From the NCBI RefSeq assembly GCF_001006045.1, contig NZ_CP011267.1, positions 1,426,001 through 1,490,000 of the forward strand: a DNA stretch of 64,000 bases, given 5' to 3'. The notes under the pieces are model-generated. The model made no database searches. It had not been told where the DNA came from and saw only the letters and a list, made by a program, of their open reading frames with translations. The DNA is from Geoglobus ahangari. Its GTDB lineage: Archaea > Halobacteriota > Archaeoglobi > Archaeoglobales > Archaeoglobaceae. A program made the position numbers and the translations under genes. Below, piece after piece: positions 34,952-39,890 of this stretch; the first letter of the stretch is position 1, and each line of letters opens with the position of its first letter.

Positions 34952-35743
34952 TCAGAATCCTCCCCCATCCCCGTACATCATCGTCACTGCCTTGCCGTTC
35001 ACGACCGTTATGCTCCTGAGCTCAAGGTTGGCCGTGTACTCAGGAACGAGCAGCGTGAAGTTAACCATCTTCTGCGCTTCCTCTATGCTTTCCGGCTTCT
35101 CTATCCCGAGATCCTTTTCGGTTACAACTTCCGCACCCTCCGGGATTTCGAACTCGAACTCGCTGTCGTCAATTCCGATGTTGAACCTCACGTTTCTGTA
35201 CTCCGTGATCATCTTCCCGGCAGGCATTTCCTGCACGATCTTCAACGGGAACCAGTACTCCATGTCCACCCACATCTCCATCTCTCCACCCATGCTATCG
35301 TTCTTGGGTGTAAGCCTTATCACGTAGCAGTCCCTTCCTGACACCTTCTCACTCCCCACGAGCTCAACGTTGTAGTTCTCGAGCATCTCCTCAACAATCG
35401 TTCCGTAGTCGGGAGCTTTCGGAGTGTACTCGCCAACCTCGAACACGAAAACCCTGTTTGACTTCCTGTCGTAGCTCCACATCTTCTTTCCATTGGACAC
35501 GAAAGTTGCATCCTCGTTCAGGCTCACCATCTTAACCTTGTTTGGCTTCTTGTACAAGTACTCGTACTCCAGCGTGGTGGTTGTGTTGTTGTGGTAAAAC
35601 GTGATGCTCACCACGCTCCTGAAGTCCTCTATGGACTCGTACTTTTCCTGCATCTTTTTGGCAATCTCGTCTGCGCTCAAGTTCGCGCATCCGGACAATG
35701 CAATCACAATTGCCGCCAGCACGAGAATTGTAGATGACCGCAT
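34952..35743 (-). CDS. LolA-like outer lipoprotein-sorting-type protein, probably frameshifted
   Basis: 263 residues in frame. Signal peptide with lipobox ALSGC (Cys19) and a beta-rich body of the LolA/LppX-like type (YESIEDFRSVVSITFY, SNGKKMWSYDRKSNRVFVFE, GRDCYVIRLTP), then the start of a DUF4367-like C-terminal domain. Archaeal relatives are membrane-anchored and of unknown role. The frame stops just after MYGDGGGF; the missing 64-residue end follows in another frame. A TATA (tttatata on the minus strand, near 35764-35771) precedes the ATG by about 25 nt, so the gene is expressed. Confidence 0.8.
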   Translation of the reverse strand: MRSSTILVLAAIVIALSGCANLSADEIAKKMQEKYESIEDFRSVVSITFYHNNTTTTLEYEYLYKKPNKVKMVSLNEDATFVSNGKKMWSYDRKSNRVFVFEVGEYTPKAPDYGTIVEEMLENYNVELVGSEKVSGRDCYVIRLTPKNDSMGGEMEMWVDMEYWFPLKIVQEMPAGKMITEYRNVRFNIGIDDSEFEFEIPEGAEVVTEKDLGIEKPESIEEAQKMVNFTLLVPEYTANLELRSITVVNGKAVTMMYGDGGGF

Positions 35744-35777: not shown

Positions 35778-36581
35778 TTACTTCAAATCAACATTATGGA
35801 ACTCCAGATCGCCCATGGGTGTGAGTTGCGGGCTTTTCGACATCTCGTAGAAGTGGTGGAAGAGCCTGAGACCCCACCTGATCGCATCACCATCCCTCGA
35901 GAGGTACATCCTGCTCGCGTCGTAGGAATCTCCCGAGTAGAGGCCGATGGCAAAGCCCTTTTCTGCTACTATGAACGCCACTCTCGCGTCATCCACCACT
36001 CTGAGCTCCGAGTTTTTGAGAAACTCTATTGCAAGATCGCCATGGGCAGAGAAGCTCTTCTCGAGCACGTTTCTTGTCAGGATGAGCGTGATGTCCTTCT
36101 CTCTCGAAGCTCTCGTGAACAGCTGGGGAAACTCCGGGTGGTAAACTGACGACACGCCCTTCACCCATCCCGACTCGAGGACTATGTCTACCCACTCCTC
36201 CACGAGCTCGAATGGATTGGTCCTCTTCAGGATTCTTCCTTCGCACAGCATATGGATGTCGCGCAGAAGATCATGGGGGATGGCTGAAACATCGTGGGTG
36301 TTGAAGAACTCCCTTATGCTGTGGTCAACCAGCATCAGCCTCTCGACCTCCCACACCTTCTCTAAAACCGCCCTTCCGTAGGTCGTGAGCCTGTACCCAT
36401 CCCTGCACCTCTCCACCAGTCCCTGCTGCGAAAAGCTCCTGATGTGGGGCTTGACAGTATCCCTCGACACCTTCAGCGCTCTCGCGATCTCGGAGATTCT
36501 CCTTTCCTCTCTAAGCTGCTCGAGGATTCTCAGCTTCAGGCTCGTGGTGGTTAAGCTGATGACTTTCTCAAATCTCTCCAT
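35778..36581 (-). CDS. HTH regulator with DUF1724 (FilR1-type) domain
   Basis: 267 residues from ATG 36581. An N-terminal winged-helix (about 5-70: LKLRILEQLREERRISEIARALKVSRDTV-type pattern) is followed by a C-terminal DUF1724 domain that in methanogens is called methanogenesis regulatory (FilR1-like): FFNTHDVSAIPHDLL, then ITLILTRNVLE and LYLSRD-like end. The effector is unknown. It lies downstream of the PHA genes on the same strand, separated by about 165 bases with its own TATA-like run (minus strand, near 36613-36622), so it might control either the PHA locus or the LolA-like gene. Confidence 0.82.
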   Translation of the reverse strand: MERFEKVISLTTTSLKLRILEQLREERRISEIARALKVSRDTVKPHIRSFSQQGLVERCRDGYRLTTYGRAVLEKVWEVERLMLVDHSIREFFNTHDVSAIPHDLLRDIHMLCEGRILKRTNPFELVEEWVDIVLESGWVKGVSSVYHPEFPQLFTRASREKDITLILTRNVLEKSFSAHGDLAIEFLKNSELRVVDDARVAFIVAEKGFAIGLYSGDSYDASRMYLSRDGDAIRWGLRLFHHFYEMSKSPQLTPMGDLEFHNVDLK

Positions 36582-36746: not shown

Positions 36747-37739
36747 TCACTTGGATCTCTCGACGATCCACTTTATCGCCTTGTCCCACAGCTCCCTGTG
36801 GGCGGAGCTGCTGACCGTCAGCCCGATGTGCCCCTTGTTGACCCTCAGCATGAGCTTGTCCTTGGACGGTATCTTCTCGTAGAATGGAATCGCACACTCG
36901 GGGGGTGTTATGTGATCCCTATCGGCCACCAGAAGGAGGGTGGGCATGGTTATCTTCCTCAGGTCAACCTTCTGCCCGTTGACATCGAACTTGCCCTCTA
37001 TGACCTCGTTCCTGTGGTACCATCTGGTTATGTACTCCTCATAAACGCAGCCCGGTATCGCTGGCGAGTCGAATATCCAGTGATCCATGTACAGGAAGTC
37101 GTGGACGAACTTCCTGTCGTCCAGCCTGTTGAGCAGCGCCTGGTACTTCTCGACCGTGAGCCTTATCGGGTCGACAAGCAGAAACGCGAAGTTGAGGAAG
37201 TCTCCACTGGCGTTGCCCATTGCCCGTGCAACCTTGTCAGGGTCTATGTTCCTCGCCCACACCGCGAGCGTGTTGTCGGTGTGGAAGTTTATGGGCGGAG
37301 CCTGCACGACGAGGTTCTTCACGTTTTCGGGGTGTAGGGTTGAGTATATGGTGCTCAGAGTTGCTCCAAGGCAGTATCCGTGCAGCGTGACCTTGTCAAC
37401 CTTCTTTTTCTTCTTTATTATGTTCACGCACCTGTCTATGTAGTCAACGTAGTCTTCGATCCTGTAGTACTTGTCCGCCCTCTTCGGGTACCCCCAGTCA
37501 ACCATCCACACGTCCAGTCCCGCCTCGAGCATCTTCCTGACCACGCTGACCCTCTCGTGGAGGTCGAGGATGTACGGCCTGTTTATGTACGCGTAGACTA
37601 TCAGCACGGGAGTTTTGAGCAGCCTCTTCCTCCTCGGCTTGAAGTGGAGGAGCTTGAACAGCCAGTCCTCGTCGACGACGTCGAACTCGCAGCTCCACGG
37701 GCAGATGTCGACCTCCTTCAGGCACTCGAACTCACTCAC
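36747..37739 (-). CDS. phaC: Polyhydroxyalkanoate synthase catalytic subunit, class III type
   Basis: 330 residues from GTG 37739, supported by GGAGGT 7 nt upstream; it overlaps the phaE stop. Alpha/beta hydrolase with the modified lipase box GYCLGA (nucleophile C123), D275 in ADRDHITPP and H304 in NKGHIGL, the Cys-Asp-His set of PHA synthases. PhaC with PhaE polymerises hydroxyacyl-CoA into storage polyester. It is shorter at the C-terminus than haloarchaeal PhaC, which carries an extension. A start at ATG 37766 is possible but lacks a ribosome site. Confidence 0.93.
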   Translation of the reverse strand: MSEFECLKEVDICPWSCEFDVVDEDWLFKLLHFKPRRKRLLKTPVLIVYAYINRPYILDLHERVSVVRKMLEAGLDVWMVDWGYPKRADKYYRIEDYVDYIDRCVNIIKKKKKVDKVTLHGYCLGATLSTIYSTLHPENVKNLVVQAPPINFHTDNTLAVWARNIDPDKVARAMGNASGDFLNFAFLLVDPIRLTVEKYQALLNRLDDRKFVHDFLYMDHWIFDSPAIPGCVYEEYITRWYHRNEVIEGKFDVNGQKVDLRKITMPTLLLVADRDHITPPECAIPFYEKIPSKDKLMLRVNKGHIGLTVSSSAHRELWDKAIKWIVERSK

Positions 37740-38667
37740 TGCCACCACCTCCAAGCCTGCCCTCAAGCTCCTCGATTCTCCTTTCCAGCTCCCTGACCTT
37801 CCTCTTCAGATCCATTATCCTCTTGTACGCCTCGTCCATCTCCGAGACCGTGGCGAATGGGTTCAGGGGGCTCTGCTCGAGGATCGACTCGAAGAACCTC
37901 CGCATGTGGTAGGAGTAGTCCATCAGGCTTCCCAGCATCATCCTCTGGATTTTCAGGTACTCCTCAGACTTTATCAGGACGTCGAACTTTCTGGCCACAA
38001 TCTCTGCGAAGTCATTCATGAACTGGTCAAAGCTCTCGATCCTGTTGCTGTTCGCGTACTCTATGAACTCGTCCACGGACTCATCGTACGCGCTCCGCAT
38101 CAGATCCCTGTACGCGAAGAAGCTCTCCCTGAATGTCTCCCAGTGCTCGGCAGCCTCGAACAGATCGTTGGACGTCTCCTTGGACAGTATGAACGGGTAC
38201 TCGTTCAGAACCCTGTATCCGTCGAGCTCGAGCTTGTACCTCCTCTTCGCAAGATCCCACCACCTGTTGACGAAGCTCTCAGTGAGGCTTCTGGCCGTCT
38301 CGCTGATCGTGTACCCGGCGAAGAGCTCGGACGTCAGCTTCATGTGGGAGATAAGCGAGAGCACGAAGTCCTCGTACGCCTCGTAAACCTCCCTCTGGCT
38401 CTCGACGAGCTTGAGCGTCTCAGGGCCGGGGAGGAAGTACCTGAGGTACTGCTCCCCCATGAGGAACATCTCGAGCGGCCTGAAGAAGAACCTGAATATC
38501 TCGTCAAAGACCCTCTCAAACTCCTCATCCTTCTTGATTCTGCCTGAAATTGAGTACTTGCTCCACAGCCTTTCCATGTGTTCCCGGATTGATATGTTTC
38601 TGAGAAGGAGTTCGAACGATTCCTTCGGCAGTTTCTTAAAAACCTCAACAATATCCTCTTCGAGCAC
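37732..38667 (-). CDS. phaE: PHA synthase subunit PhaE-like
   Basis: 311 residues, mostly helical, with a C-terminal coiled coil (about 275-305: RIMDLKRKVRELERRIEELE) ending in GGGGSE. The NPFATVSEMDEAYKRIMDL segment before the coil is of the kind PhaE proteins use to bind PhaC. Located directly before phaC with overlap. It starts with GTG 38667, with AGGTGAT upstream and a TATA-like run at about 38690-38708 (minus strand), so phaEC has its own promoter in addition to any read-through from the phasin gene. Confidence 0.88.
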   Translation of the reverse strand: MLEEDIVEVFKKLPKESFELLLRNISIREHMERLWSKYSISGRIKKDEEFERVFDEIFRFFFRPLEMFLMGEQYLRYFLPGPETLKLVESQREVYEAYEDFVLSLISHMKLTSELFAGYTISETARSLTESFVNRWWDLAKRRYKLELDGYRVLNEYPFILSKETSNDLFEAAEHWETFRESFFAYRDLMRSAYDESVDEFIEYANSNRIESFDQFMNDFAEIVARKFDVLIKSEEYLKIQRMMLGSLMDYSYHMRRFFESILEQSPLNPFATVSEMDEAYKRIMDLKRKVRELERRIEELEGRLGGGGSE

Positions 38668-38824
38668 GGTATCACCTGCTATATAATTTTGGTCTTAAAT
38701 ATTATAAAAACTTCGGTTGAGCGGTAATAGGTGTTTACACGCCGTAATAAAGAGTGTTAATGACGAAGATCTGGAAAAGGCTGAGAACAGCAGAAAAATC
38801 AAAAAAATGGAGTGGCGGTGTGCT

Positions 38825-39139
38825 TCACTGCTTCTCCTTCTTCTGAGCCTTCTCTGTCAGCTCGATCATCCTCTTGAAGATCTCGTCCTGCTGCTTTTCA
38901 AGCTGATCAAGCAGCTTTCTGAAGTTCTCGAAAACCTTGGCCTGCGACTCCGAGTACATCTCGACAGACTTCTTGACGCTGTCGAAGACCTCGCTCGGAA
39001 CGACCTGTCTGAGGTACACCTCGTACAGGCTGACGTAGCTATCAGCGGCCACCTTCATCAGGTCGAGGCTCGTCTTGCTTACCCCAAACCCCATCTTGTA
39101 AAAACTCCTCATGGTCTCCAAAAAGTCCTTATACTCCAT
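38825..39139 (-). CDS. Phasin-like protein
   Basis: 104 residues, fully helical and amphipathic, with SLYEVYLRQVVPSEVFDSVKK-like sequence and a Lys/Glu-rich tail. It has the size and pattern of phasins, which coat PHA granules; its place between an AbrB-like gene and phaE matches haloarchaeal phaP. The start ATG overlaps the stop of the AbrB-like gene, implying coupled translation. No sequence motif proves the function. Confidence 0.75.
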   Translation of the reverse strand: MEYKDFLETMRSFYKMGFGVSKTSLDLMKVAADSYVSLYEVYLRQVVPSEVFDSVKKSVEMYSESQAKVFENFRKLLDQLEKQQDEIFKRMIELTEKAQKKEKQ

Positions 39140-39402
39140 CACTCCTCACCTCCTTCCTTCACAACAATTACCTTGACGATGTCTCCCTCCTTCAGCCCGA
39201 GCATGGCCCTGTCGCTCTCAGGTATGGAGATTCTCCCGCCGCTCTGAACTCTCGCCCTGAACACGGCAATGTCCTTCCTAAAAACGTGCATCTCCGACGC
39301 AAATCCGAGCATAGAGGAAATGTTCTGCATGAAGTCTCCCTGCATCTTGAGCAGATCATTCCACAGCTTCTGCATTTCCTTGAGGTATTCTGGAACCATC
39401 AT
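39139..39402 (-). CDS. AbrB/SpoVT-domain protein, PhaR-like
   Basis: About 87 residues (ATG 39402 or 39399). An N-terminal helical region (EMQKLWNDLLKMQGDFMQNI) resembling phasin helices is followed by a swapped-hairpin AbrB domain (VQSGGRISIPESDRAMLGL, GDIVKVIVV). In Haloferax the AbrB-type PhaR represses the phaRP operon and binds granules; the same order here suggests the same role. A TATA (catatttatatc, minus strand, 39419-39430) lies 20-30 nt upstream, so the message is nearly leaderless. Frames extending to 39498 run into the MaoC gene and are unlikely. Confidence 0.8.
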   Translation of the reverse strand: MMVPEYLKEMQKLWNDLLKMQGDFMQNISSMLGFASEMHVFRKDIAVFRARVQSGGRISIPESDRAMLGLKEGDIVKVIVVKEGGEE

Positions 39403-39440
39403 ATACCATTTGGTGGCAATGATATAAATATGTTTTGGTT

Positions 39441-39890
39441 TTACCAGAGGAGGACCACAACGTAACCCTCCGCAACCACATCCTCGCCAACCAGACACCT
39501 GACGTTCAGCCTGTACTTCCTCCTGTCCTTCTCCACAACCTCTCCGACGACCTTGACCACATCACCAATCCTCACGGGCTTGGTGTACCTGAAGCTGGCC
39601 TCGAGCAGCACGACGATCCCCGGCATTCTCGCAACTGCTGCCGATACGAGGCTCGTGGTGAGCATTCCGTGAACAACTCTCCCGCCAAACCTCGTCGTTT
39701 TTGCGACCTCCTCATCGAAGTGGAGCGGGTTCAGGTCTCCTGAGGCAAGACCGAAAAAGCAGACGTCCACCTCCTCAAGCCTCTTCTCGTACTCTATGGT
39801 GTATCCAACGTCCACATTCCCTTCAAACTTCTCGAATTCGACAACCTCTCCACCGTACTTCCGGTAAATTTCCTTTATCTCTTCTAACAT
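39441..39890 (-). CDS. MaoC-like (R)-specific enoyl-CoA hydratase, PhaJ-type
   Basis: 149 residues with a hot-dog fold. The catalytic motif is ASGDLNPLHFDEE, near 50-62, with Asp and His of the R-hydratase 2 group, and GRVVHGMLT near 70-78. It would hydrate crotonyl-CoA or other enoyl-CoA to the (R)-3-hydroxyacyl-CoA used by PhaEC. An AGGAG site precedes ATG 39890 by about 12 nt. First gene of the PHA cluster; argJ is divergent from it. Confidence 0.87.
   Translation of the reverse strand: MLEEIKEIYRKYGGEVVEFEKFEGNVDVGYTIEYEKRLEEVDVCFFGLASGDLNPLHFDEEVAKTTRFGGRVVHGMLTTSLVSAAVARMPGIVVLLEASFRYTKPVRIGDVVKVVGEVVEKDRRKYRLNVRCLVGEDVVAEGYVVVLLW

Follow-up and report, generated by a model that had tools for sequence, protein, structure and literature searches.

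Does a hyperthermophilic archaeon store polyester? The question is raised by a cluster of five genes in a stretch of 64,000 nucleotides of the Geoglobus ahangari 234T genome (contig NZ_CP011267.1, positions 1,426,001 to 1,490,000; hereafter the window), the assembly of which (GCF_001006045.1) consists of one contig of 1,770,093 bp. This organism has its growth optimum at 88 °C and oxidises both long- and short-chain fatty acids (PMC4600277). The cluster encodes homologs of the two polyhydroxyalkanoate (PHA) synthase subunits, PhaC and PhaE, together with a hydratase (PhaJ), a regulator (PhaR) and a phasin-like protein (PhaP). We consider that it is a working PHA storage module, with a probability of about 0.8.

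The gene cluster and its predicted synthase

A first-pass annotation of the window described five minus-strand genes in the order known from haloarchaea. We found all five open reading frames, spanning 39890-36747: phaJ/maoC, an (R)-specific enoyl-CoA hydratase gene of the MaoC type (39441..39890, 149 aa); phaR, encoding an AbrB-domain regulator with an N-terminal helix (39139..39402, 87 aa); phaP (38825..39139, 104 aa); a long form of phaE (37732..38667, 311 aa); and phaC (36747..37739, 330 aa). The order is an exact match to phaJ-phaR-phaP-phaE-phaC of Haloferax mediterranei (PMC10948481), and gene content and order bear out the presence of a PHA gene set in a hyperthermophilic member of the Archaeoglobales. 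In a related Geoglobus metagenome-assembled genome the pha genes are 73-92% identical and stand in the same order, with low nonsynonymous divergence (dN) and saturated synonymous divergence (dS), and the locus is therefore more than a chance assembly.

The overlaps that had been taken as signs of an operon are both present: base 39139 is common to the phaR stop and the phaP start (TGATG), and the phaE stop and the phaC GTG start overlap by 8 bp (37732-37739). The operon claim is thus firm for phaR-phaP and for phaE-phaC, but phaP and phaE are split by a gap of 157 bp holding a conserved box that resembles a B recognition element and TATA box (BRE/TATA-like). This putative phaE promoter (AACCGAAGTTTTTATAATATTT, minus strand, 38697..38718) has similar boxes before phaE at loci L040 and L041. 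Since phaR also has a box of its own, the cluster is probably transcribed as two or three units.

Counted from the GTG start at 37739, PhaC carries an intact triad of Cys123, Asp275 and His304, numbered as in the first-pass annotation (124/276/305 in the 331-codon frame). The G-x-C-x-G box (GYCLG), the Asp and the His are kept in every intact sequence of its lineage, which we call C1. Against the class III synthase model TIGR01836 the window PhaC scored 340.1 bits, under the curated cut-off of 365.3; this cut-off is missed by all Archaeoglobi PhaC of C1 and of a second lineage, C2. PhaE passed the gathering cut-off of PF09712 (45.4 bits; cut-off 25.7), belongs to a conserved family (A2) and is predicted to be all-helical; with TIGR01834 it gave 47.4 bits and did not reach the cut-off of 154.95. 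A fold search with PhaE returned coiled-coil/BAR-like chance matches only. The pair is like bacterial class III PhaEC of the Allochromatium type (TIGR01836/TIGR01834) in having two subunits, a Cys-Asp-His triad, a G-x-C-x-G box, a PhaC of about 40 kDa and a PhaE of similar size that matches PF09712, and unlike it in that the scores of both subunits lie under the curated limits.

Descent and distribution in Archaeoglobi

The locus had been called haloarchaeal-type, which holds for the gene order and PhaR but not for the synthase. In a PhaC tree of 59 sequences, the window PhaC fell within PHA synthases, inside an Archaeoglobi clade (C1, support 100/100) joined by two genomes of another family (f9). 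The split from class I sequences was supported at 100/100 and the C1 clade stood beside class III-type archaeal and bacterial sequences, although its deep position is not settled because Thaumarchaeal PhaC was left out and bacterial class III was thinly sampled. In the approximately unbiased (AU) test, one clade of C1 and haloarchaeal PhaC was rejected (p = 6e-8; p 0.012 with f9 added), as was one clade of C1 and C2 (p 0.001), whereas C2 with haloarchaea was not rejected (p 0.30). The Archaeoglobi PhaC2 grouped with haloarchaeal enzymes (95/93), in a less certain place among them. In profile comparison the long PhaE was linked to its f9 counterpart (99.7%) and, at lower probability, to other archaeal PhaE (95.5% and 78.7%), with no link to the short PhaE of Archaeoglobi. 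These AU rejections and profile links point to another synthase pair under a haloarchaeal gene order and, on sequence grounds, the window PhaC and PhaE are a separate branch with short PhaC and long PhaE, outside the haloarchaeal PhaC clade.

The H. mediterranei cluster shares with the window its gene order, a homologous PhaR with the same N-terminal helix, and the roles of PhaJ and PhaE/PhaC. On the other hand, the window PhaC is of another lineage and lacks the C-terminal extension, as the first-pass annotation had noticed (330 aa, against 423-566 aa in haloarchaeal PhaC), and its PhaE has 311 aa instead of about 180, so that neither the extended PhaC C-terminus nor the short PhaE of the haloarchaeal subtype was found. 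In addition, the window PhaP is not recognisably homologous and no PhaB-type reductase was found in the genome. The identical gene order and homologous PhaR might suggest that the whole locus was recently transferred from haloarchaea, but the AU rejection of a joint clade (p 6e-8) speaks against this, PhaE and PhaP can hardly be aligned with their haloarchaeal counterparts, and the C1 set is spread across the family with its linked genes in several arrangements; we regard such a transfer as highly improbable. Separately, a divergent extra haloarchaeal PhaC-like protein (L112:6816-7895) has GYSTG, with Ser replacing the catalytic Cys, and D-A instead of D-H, and thus may be no synthase.

The first-pass annotation had proposed a search for homologs across the Archaeoglobales. 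Across the class, an intact PhaC1 was found in 16 of 59 genomes, with one further frameshifted copy and stumps in two more. The long PhaE and the small helical PhaP occur in the same 16 genomes (Fisher p 1.5e-13 over the 59 genomes, uncorrected for shared ancestry). The arrangement is phaR-phaP-phaE-phaC1 in Geoglobus and g6, while G023, which we take to be Ferroglobus placidus, and some g13 genomes have phaR-phaP-short phaE-phaC2 facing phaE-phaC1. In the Archaeoglobus-type genome G003, genes for a 3-hydroxyacyl-CoA dehydrogenase (3HCDH), phaP, phaE, phaC1 and phaJ form one gene run, the first four of which are also found in G002. Linkage that is kept despite rearrangement is a stronger sign of joint function than a single operon. 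Outside the Archaeoglobi genomes, a contig labelled Hadesarchaea WYZ-LMO6 (L037:1004-3640) carries phaE-phaC1-maoC and phaP, with a PhaC nested in the Archaeoglobi C1 clade; this reflects either wrong binning or transfer.

A second pair, made up of a short PhaE (about 170-220 aa) and PhaC2 (366-387 aa), was found in 11 Archaeoglobi genomes (L043:5881-7499, L042, L051, L052, L058-L064). It is of the same archaeal family and in G023 is preceded by the same phaJ-phaR-phaP genes, but PhaC2 groups with haloarchaeal enzymes and does not occur in the window genome. In several genomes a pair of divergent PhaC paralogs is found at close distance, and PhaC1 could be read as a cysteine-type PHA depolymerase or thiolysis enzyme, with PhaC2 as its partner where both are present. 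Cysteine triads are also known in some intracellular depolymerases, and C1 scores under the class III cut-off. However, six genomes, including the complete G. ahangari genome, hold C1, PhaE and PhaP with no C2 found, so that a depolymerase would have no synthase to go with it; partnership with PhaE is a synthase trait; and the depolymerase model PhaZ gave 26 bits on the window PhaC against 340 for the synthase model. A depolymerase role is therefore unlikely, and the retention of phaP and phaE without C2 argues that C1 is the synthase in the C1-only genomes.

Traces of loss were also found. In G001, which we take to be Archaeoglobus fulgidus, a view backed by the match of its MaoC product to the AF1124 sequence, all that is left of phaC1 between a gene for a 650-aa 3HCDH and maoC (AF1124; L056:5354-8054) is its final 73 codons. 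The same 3HCDH and maoC genes flank phaP, phaE and a whole phaC in G003, and the comparison identifies the G001 arrangement as the scar of a deletion in a PHA locus that relatives have kept whole. A phaC1 stump of 42-43 codons is left in G005; the G007 copy is frameshifted near codon 297, either in reality or through an assembly error. This patchy retention could mean that the pha genes are relics, or were recruited elsewhere, for example to the chemistry of lipid droplets or of short oligo-3-hydroxybutyrate, and that no storage granule is formed. We think this quite unlikely: the five window ORFs are intact, their amino acids are strongly conserved with low dN, and the retained phasin-like and PhaR genes point to granules.

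Proposed monomer supply, phasin-like protein and regulation

PhaJ matches PF01575 (92 bits) and has the hydratase-2 motif GDxNPxH in the form SGDLNPLHFDEEVA. In the PDB its nearest relatives are AF1124 (E 1e-60) and the (R)-specific enoyl-CoA hydratases 5cpg and 1iq6. AF1124, a putative dehydratase of A. fulgidus with a solved structure (PDB 2b3m, 3k67), is 66% identical to the window PhaJ, but its neighbour is a phaC stump only and its PHA context is lost. MaoC is retained more widely than phaC1, in 28 of the 59 genomes, and thus probably also serves outside PHA.

For the supply of monomers we searched the G. ahangari genome for reductases. No PF13561 match and one marginal PF00106 match (27.8 bits) were seen, and searches for homologs of the haloarchaeal beta-ketoacyl reductase and of FabG/PhaB found none. 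Among the 16 C1 genomes, a homolog of the haloarchaeal reductase is missing from nine and found in seven. For beta-oxidation, the G. ahangari genome has 3HCDH at four loci and members of the thiolase family at several. Given the apparent lack of a FabG/PhaB-type reductase, the ample beta-oxidation genes, the presence of phaJ in the cluster and the position of 3HCDH next to pha genes in Archaeoglobus-type genomes, the simplest and most likely source of monomers is enoyl-CoA, drawn from beta-oxidation and converted by PhaJ, although a reductase of another family may supply (R)-3-hydroxyacyl-CoA. Stearate, palmitate, butyrate and valerate all serve G. ahangari as substrates for oxidation (PMC4600277), and in H. 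mediterranei the granule-bound PhaJ1 ties PHA to beta-oxidation (PMC4823750). A PF01734 match, which a patatin-type depolymerase PhaZh1 would give, was not found in the G. ahangari genome; other depolymerase families were not searched.

The 104-aa PhaP belongs to a conserved family (A1) and was modelled by AlphaFold as a two-helix hairpin (pLDDT, predicted local distance difference test, of 90; helices 3-46 and 49-103). It scored 14.7 bits with the phasin model TIGR01841, under the cut-off. We regard it as phasin-like only by its place, size, co-inheritance with phaC1 and predicted helical shape; position and shape agree with the first-pass proposal, but our profile comparison gave no reliable link to haloarchaeal PhaP.

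The AbrB-domain protein passed TIGR01439 (31 bits; cut-off 28.3) and aligned with haloarchaeal PhaR over 82 columns including the N-terminal helix (hhalign 99.4%, E 7e-22). By this profile match it is clearly a true homolog of haloarchaeal PhaR over its whole length. The helix that had been called phasin-like is not an oddity, because haloarchaeal PhaR has the same helix. Before phaR, most relatives have a BRE/TATA-like box with TGGTA/TACCA half-sites directly after it; in the window these are a putative promoter, ACCAAAACATATTTATAT at 39422-39439, and a candidate PhaR operator, GCCACCAAATGGT at 39405-39417 (together 39405..39439, minus strand). There are 2-4 half-sites per 40 nt, compared with about 0.17 in shuffled sequences, but the test is post hoc, as the motif was picked after inspection, and a generic inverted-repeat test was significant in few phaR promoters only. 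In H. mediterranei the phaRP operon is under repression by PhaR itself (PMC10948481), and autoregulation in G. ahangari is by analogy a reasonable lead only.

Downstream of phaC, the window carries a FilR1/HVO_A0261-type winged-helix regulator (35778-36581, minus strand), which we dropped as a part of the locus because it has no counterpart beside pha genes in relatives. Also near the pha genes is an archaeal lipoprotein with a LolA/MucB-like domain (34952-35743, minus strand; PF17131, 41.6 bits).

Possible polyester storage near 90 °C

We propose that beta-oxidation of fatty acids, and of short acids such as butyrate and valerate, would provide trans-2-enoyl-CoA, and that PhaJ would hydrate this to (R)-3-hydroxyacyl-CoA, which a two-subunit synthase of PhaC (C1) and long PhaE, active at 88 °C, would polymerise on the active-site cysteine. 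The small two-helix PhaP would coat the granule, and PhaR would bind both the granule surface and its own promoter, so that granule formation releases phaRP, as proposed for Haloferax. On demand, the polymer would return via PhaJ into beta-oxidation. There would be no PhaA-PhaB branch, because the genome is apparently without a FabG/PhaB-type reductase.

Several points weigh against a storage module. Besides the sub-cut-off scores of both synthase subunits, the window PhaC is without about 35 N-terminal positions of the class III model. For PhaP, no reliable match to a known phasin came from searches by sequence, by profile, against PDB sequences or by fold (21% probability in the profile comparison with haloarchaeal PhaP). 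The locus is missing from most Archaeoglobi. PHA goes unmentioned in the genome paper of G. ahangari, and in the literature within our reach, which excluded most subscription papers, we found no report of PHA polymer for Archaeoglobales. Furthermore, PhaJ1 of H. mediterranei acts mainly in mobilisation and contributes little to synthesis, which is dominated by the PhaB route (PMC4823750). As that route is apparently missing here, we predict that the emphasis of PhaJ is reversed relative to H. mediterranei.

A survey of 427 archaea found complete PHA pathways in halophiles only (PMC6355812). Hydrothermal vents and thermal springs had, however, already yielded archaeal class III genes in a phaC mining study (PMC8312272), and pha genes in hot places are thus not wholly new. 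On balance, we lean slightly towards a separate, Archaeoglobi-centred class of two-subunit synthase, with a short PhaC1, a long PhaE and its own phasin family, that may make storage polyester at close to 90 °C from nothing but beta-oxidation intermediates, with no PhaA/PhaB branch, and that would have been lost repeatedly, with a scar remaining in A. fulgidus. Archaeal PHA is regarded as a halophile trait, and natural polyester storage would reach hyperthermophiles if the polymer is found. If true, this would also provide enzymology and bioplastics with a thermostable two-subunit synthase, and it would raise the question of the behaviour of such a polyester inside a cell near 90 °C. The locus also points to a possible function for AF1124, an orphan of solved structure, and with it a polymer supply from beta-oxidation alone becomes testable in a cultured strain.

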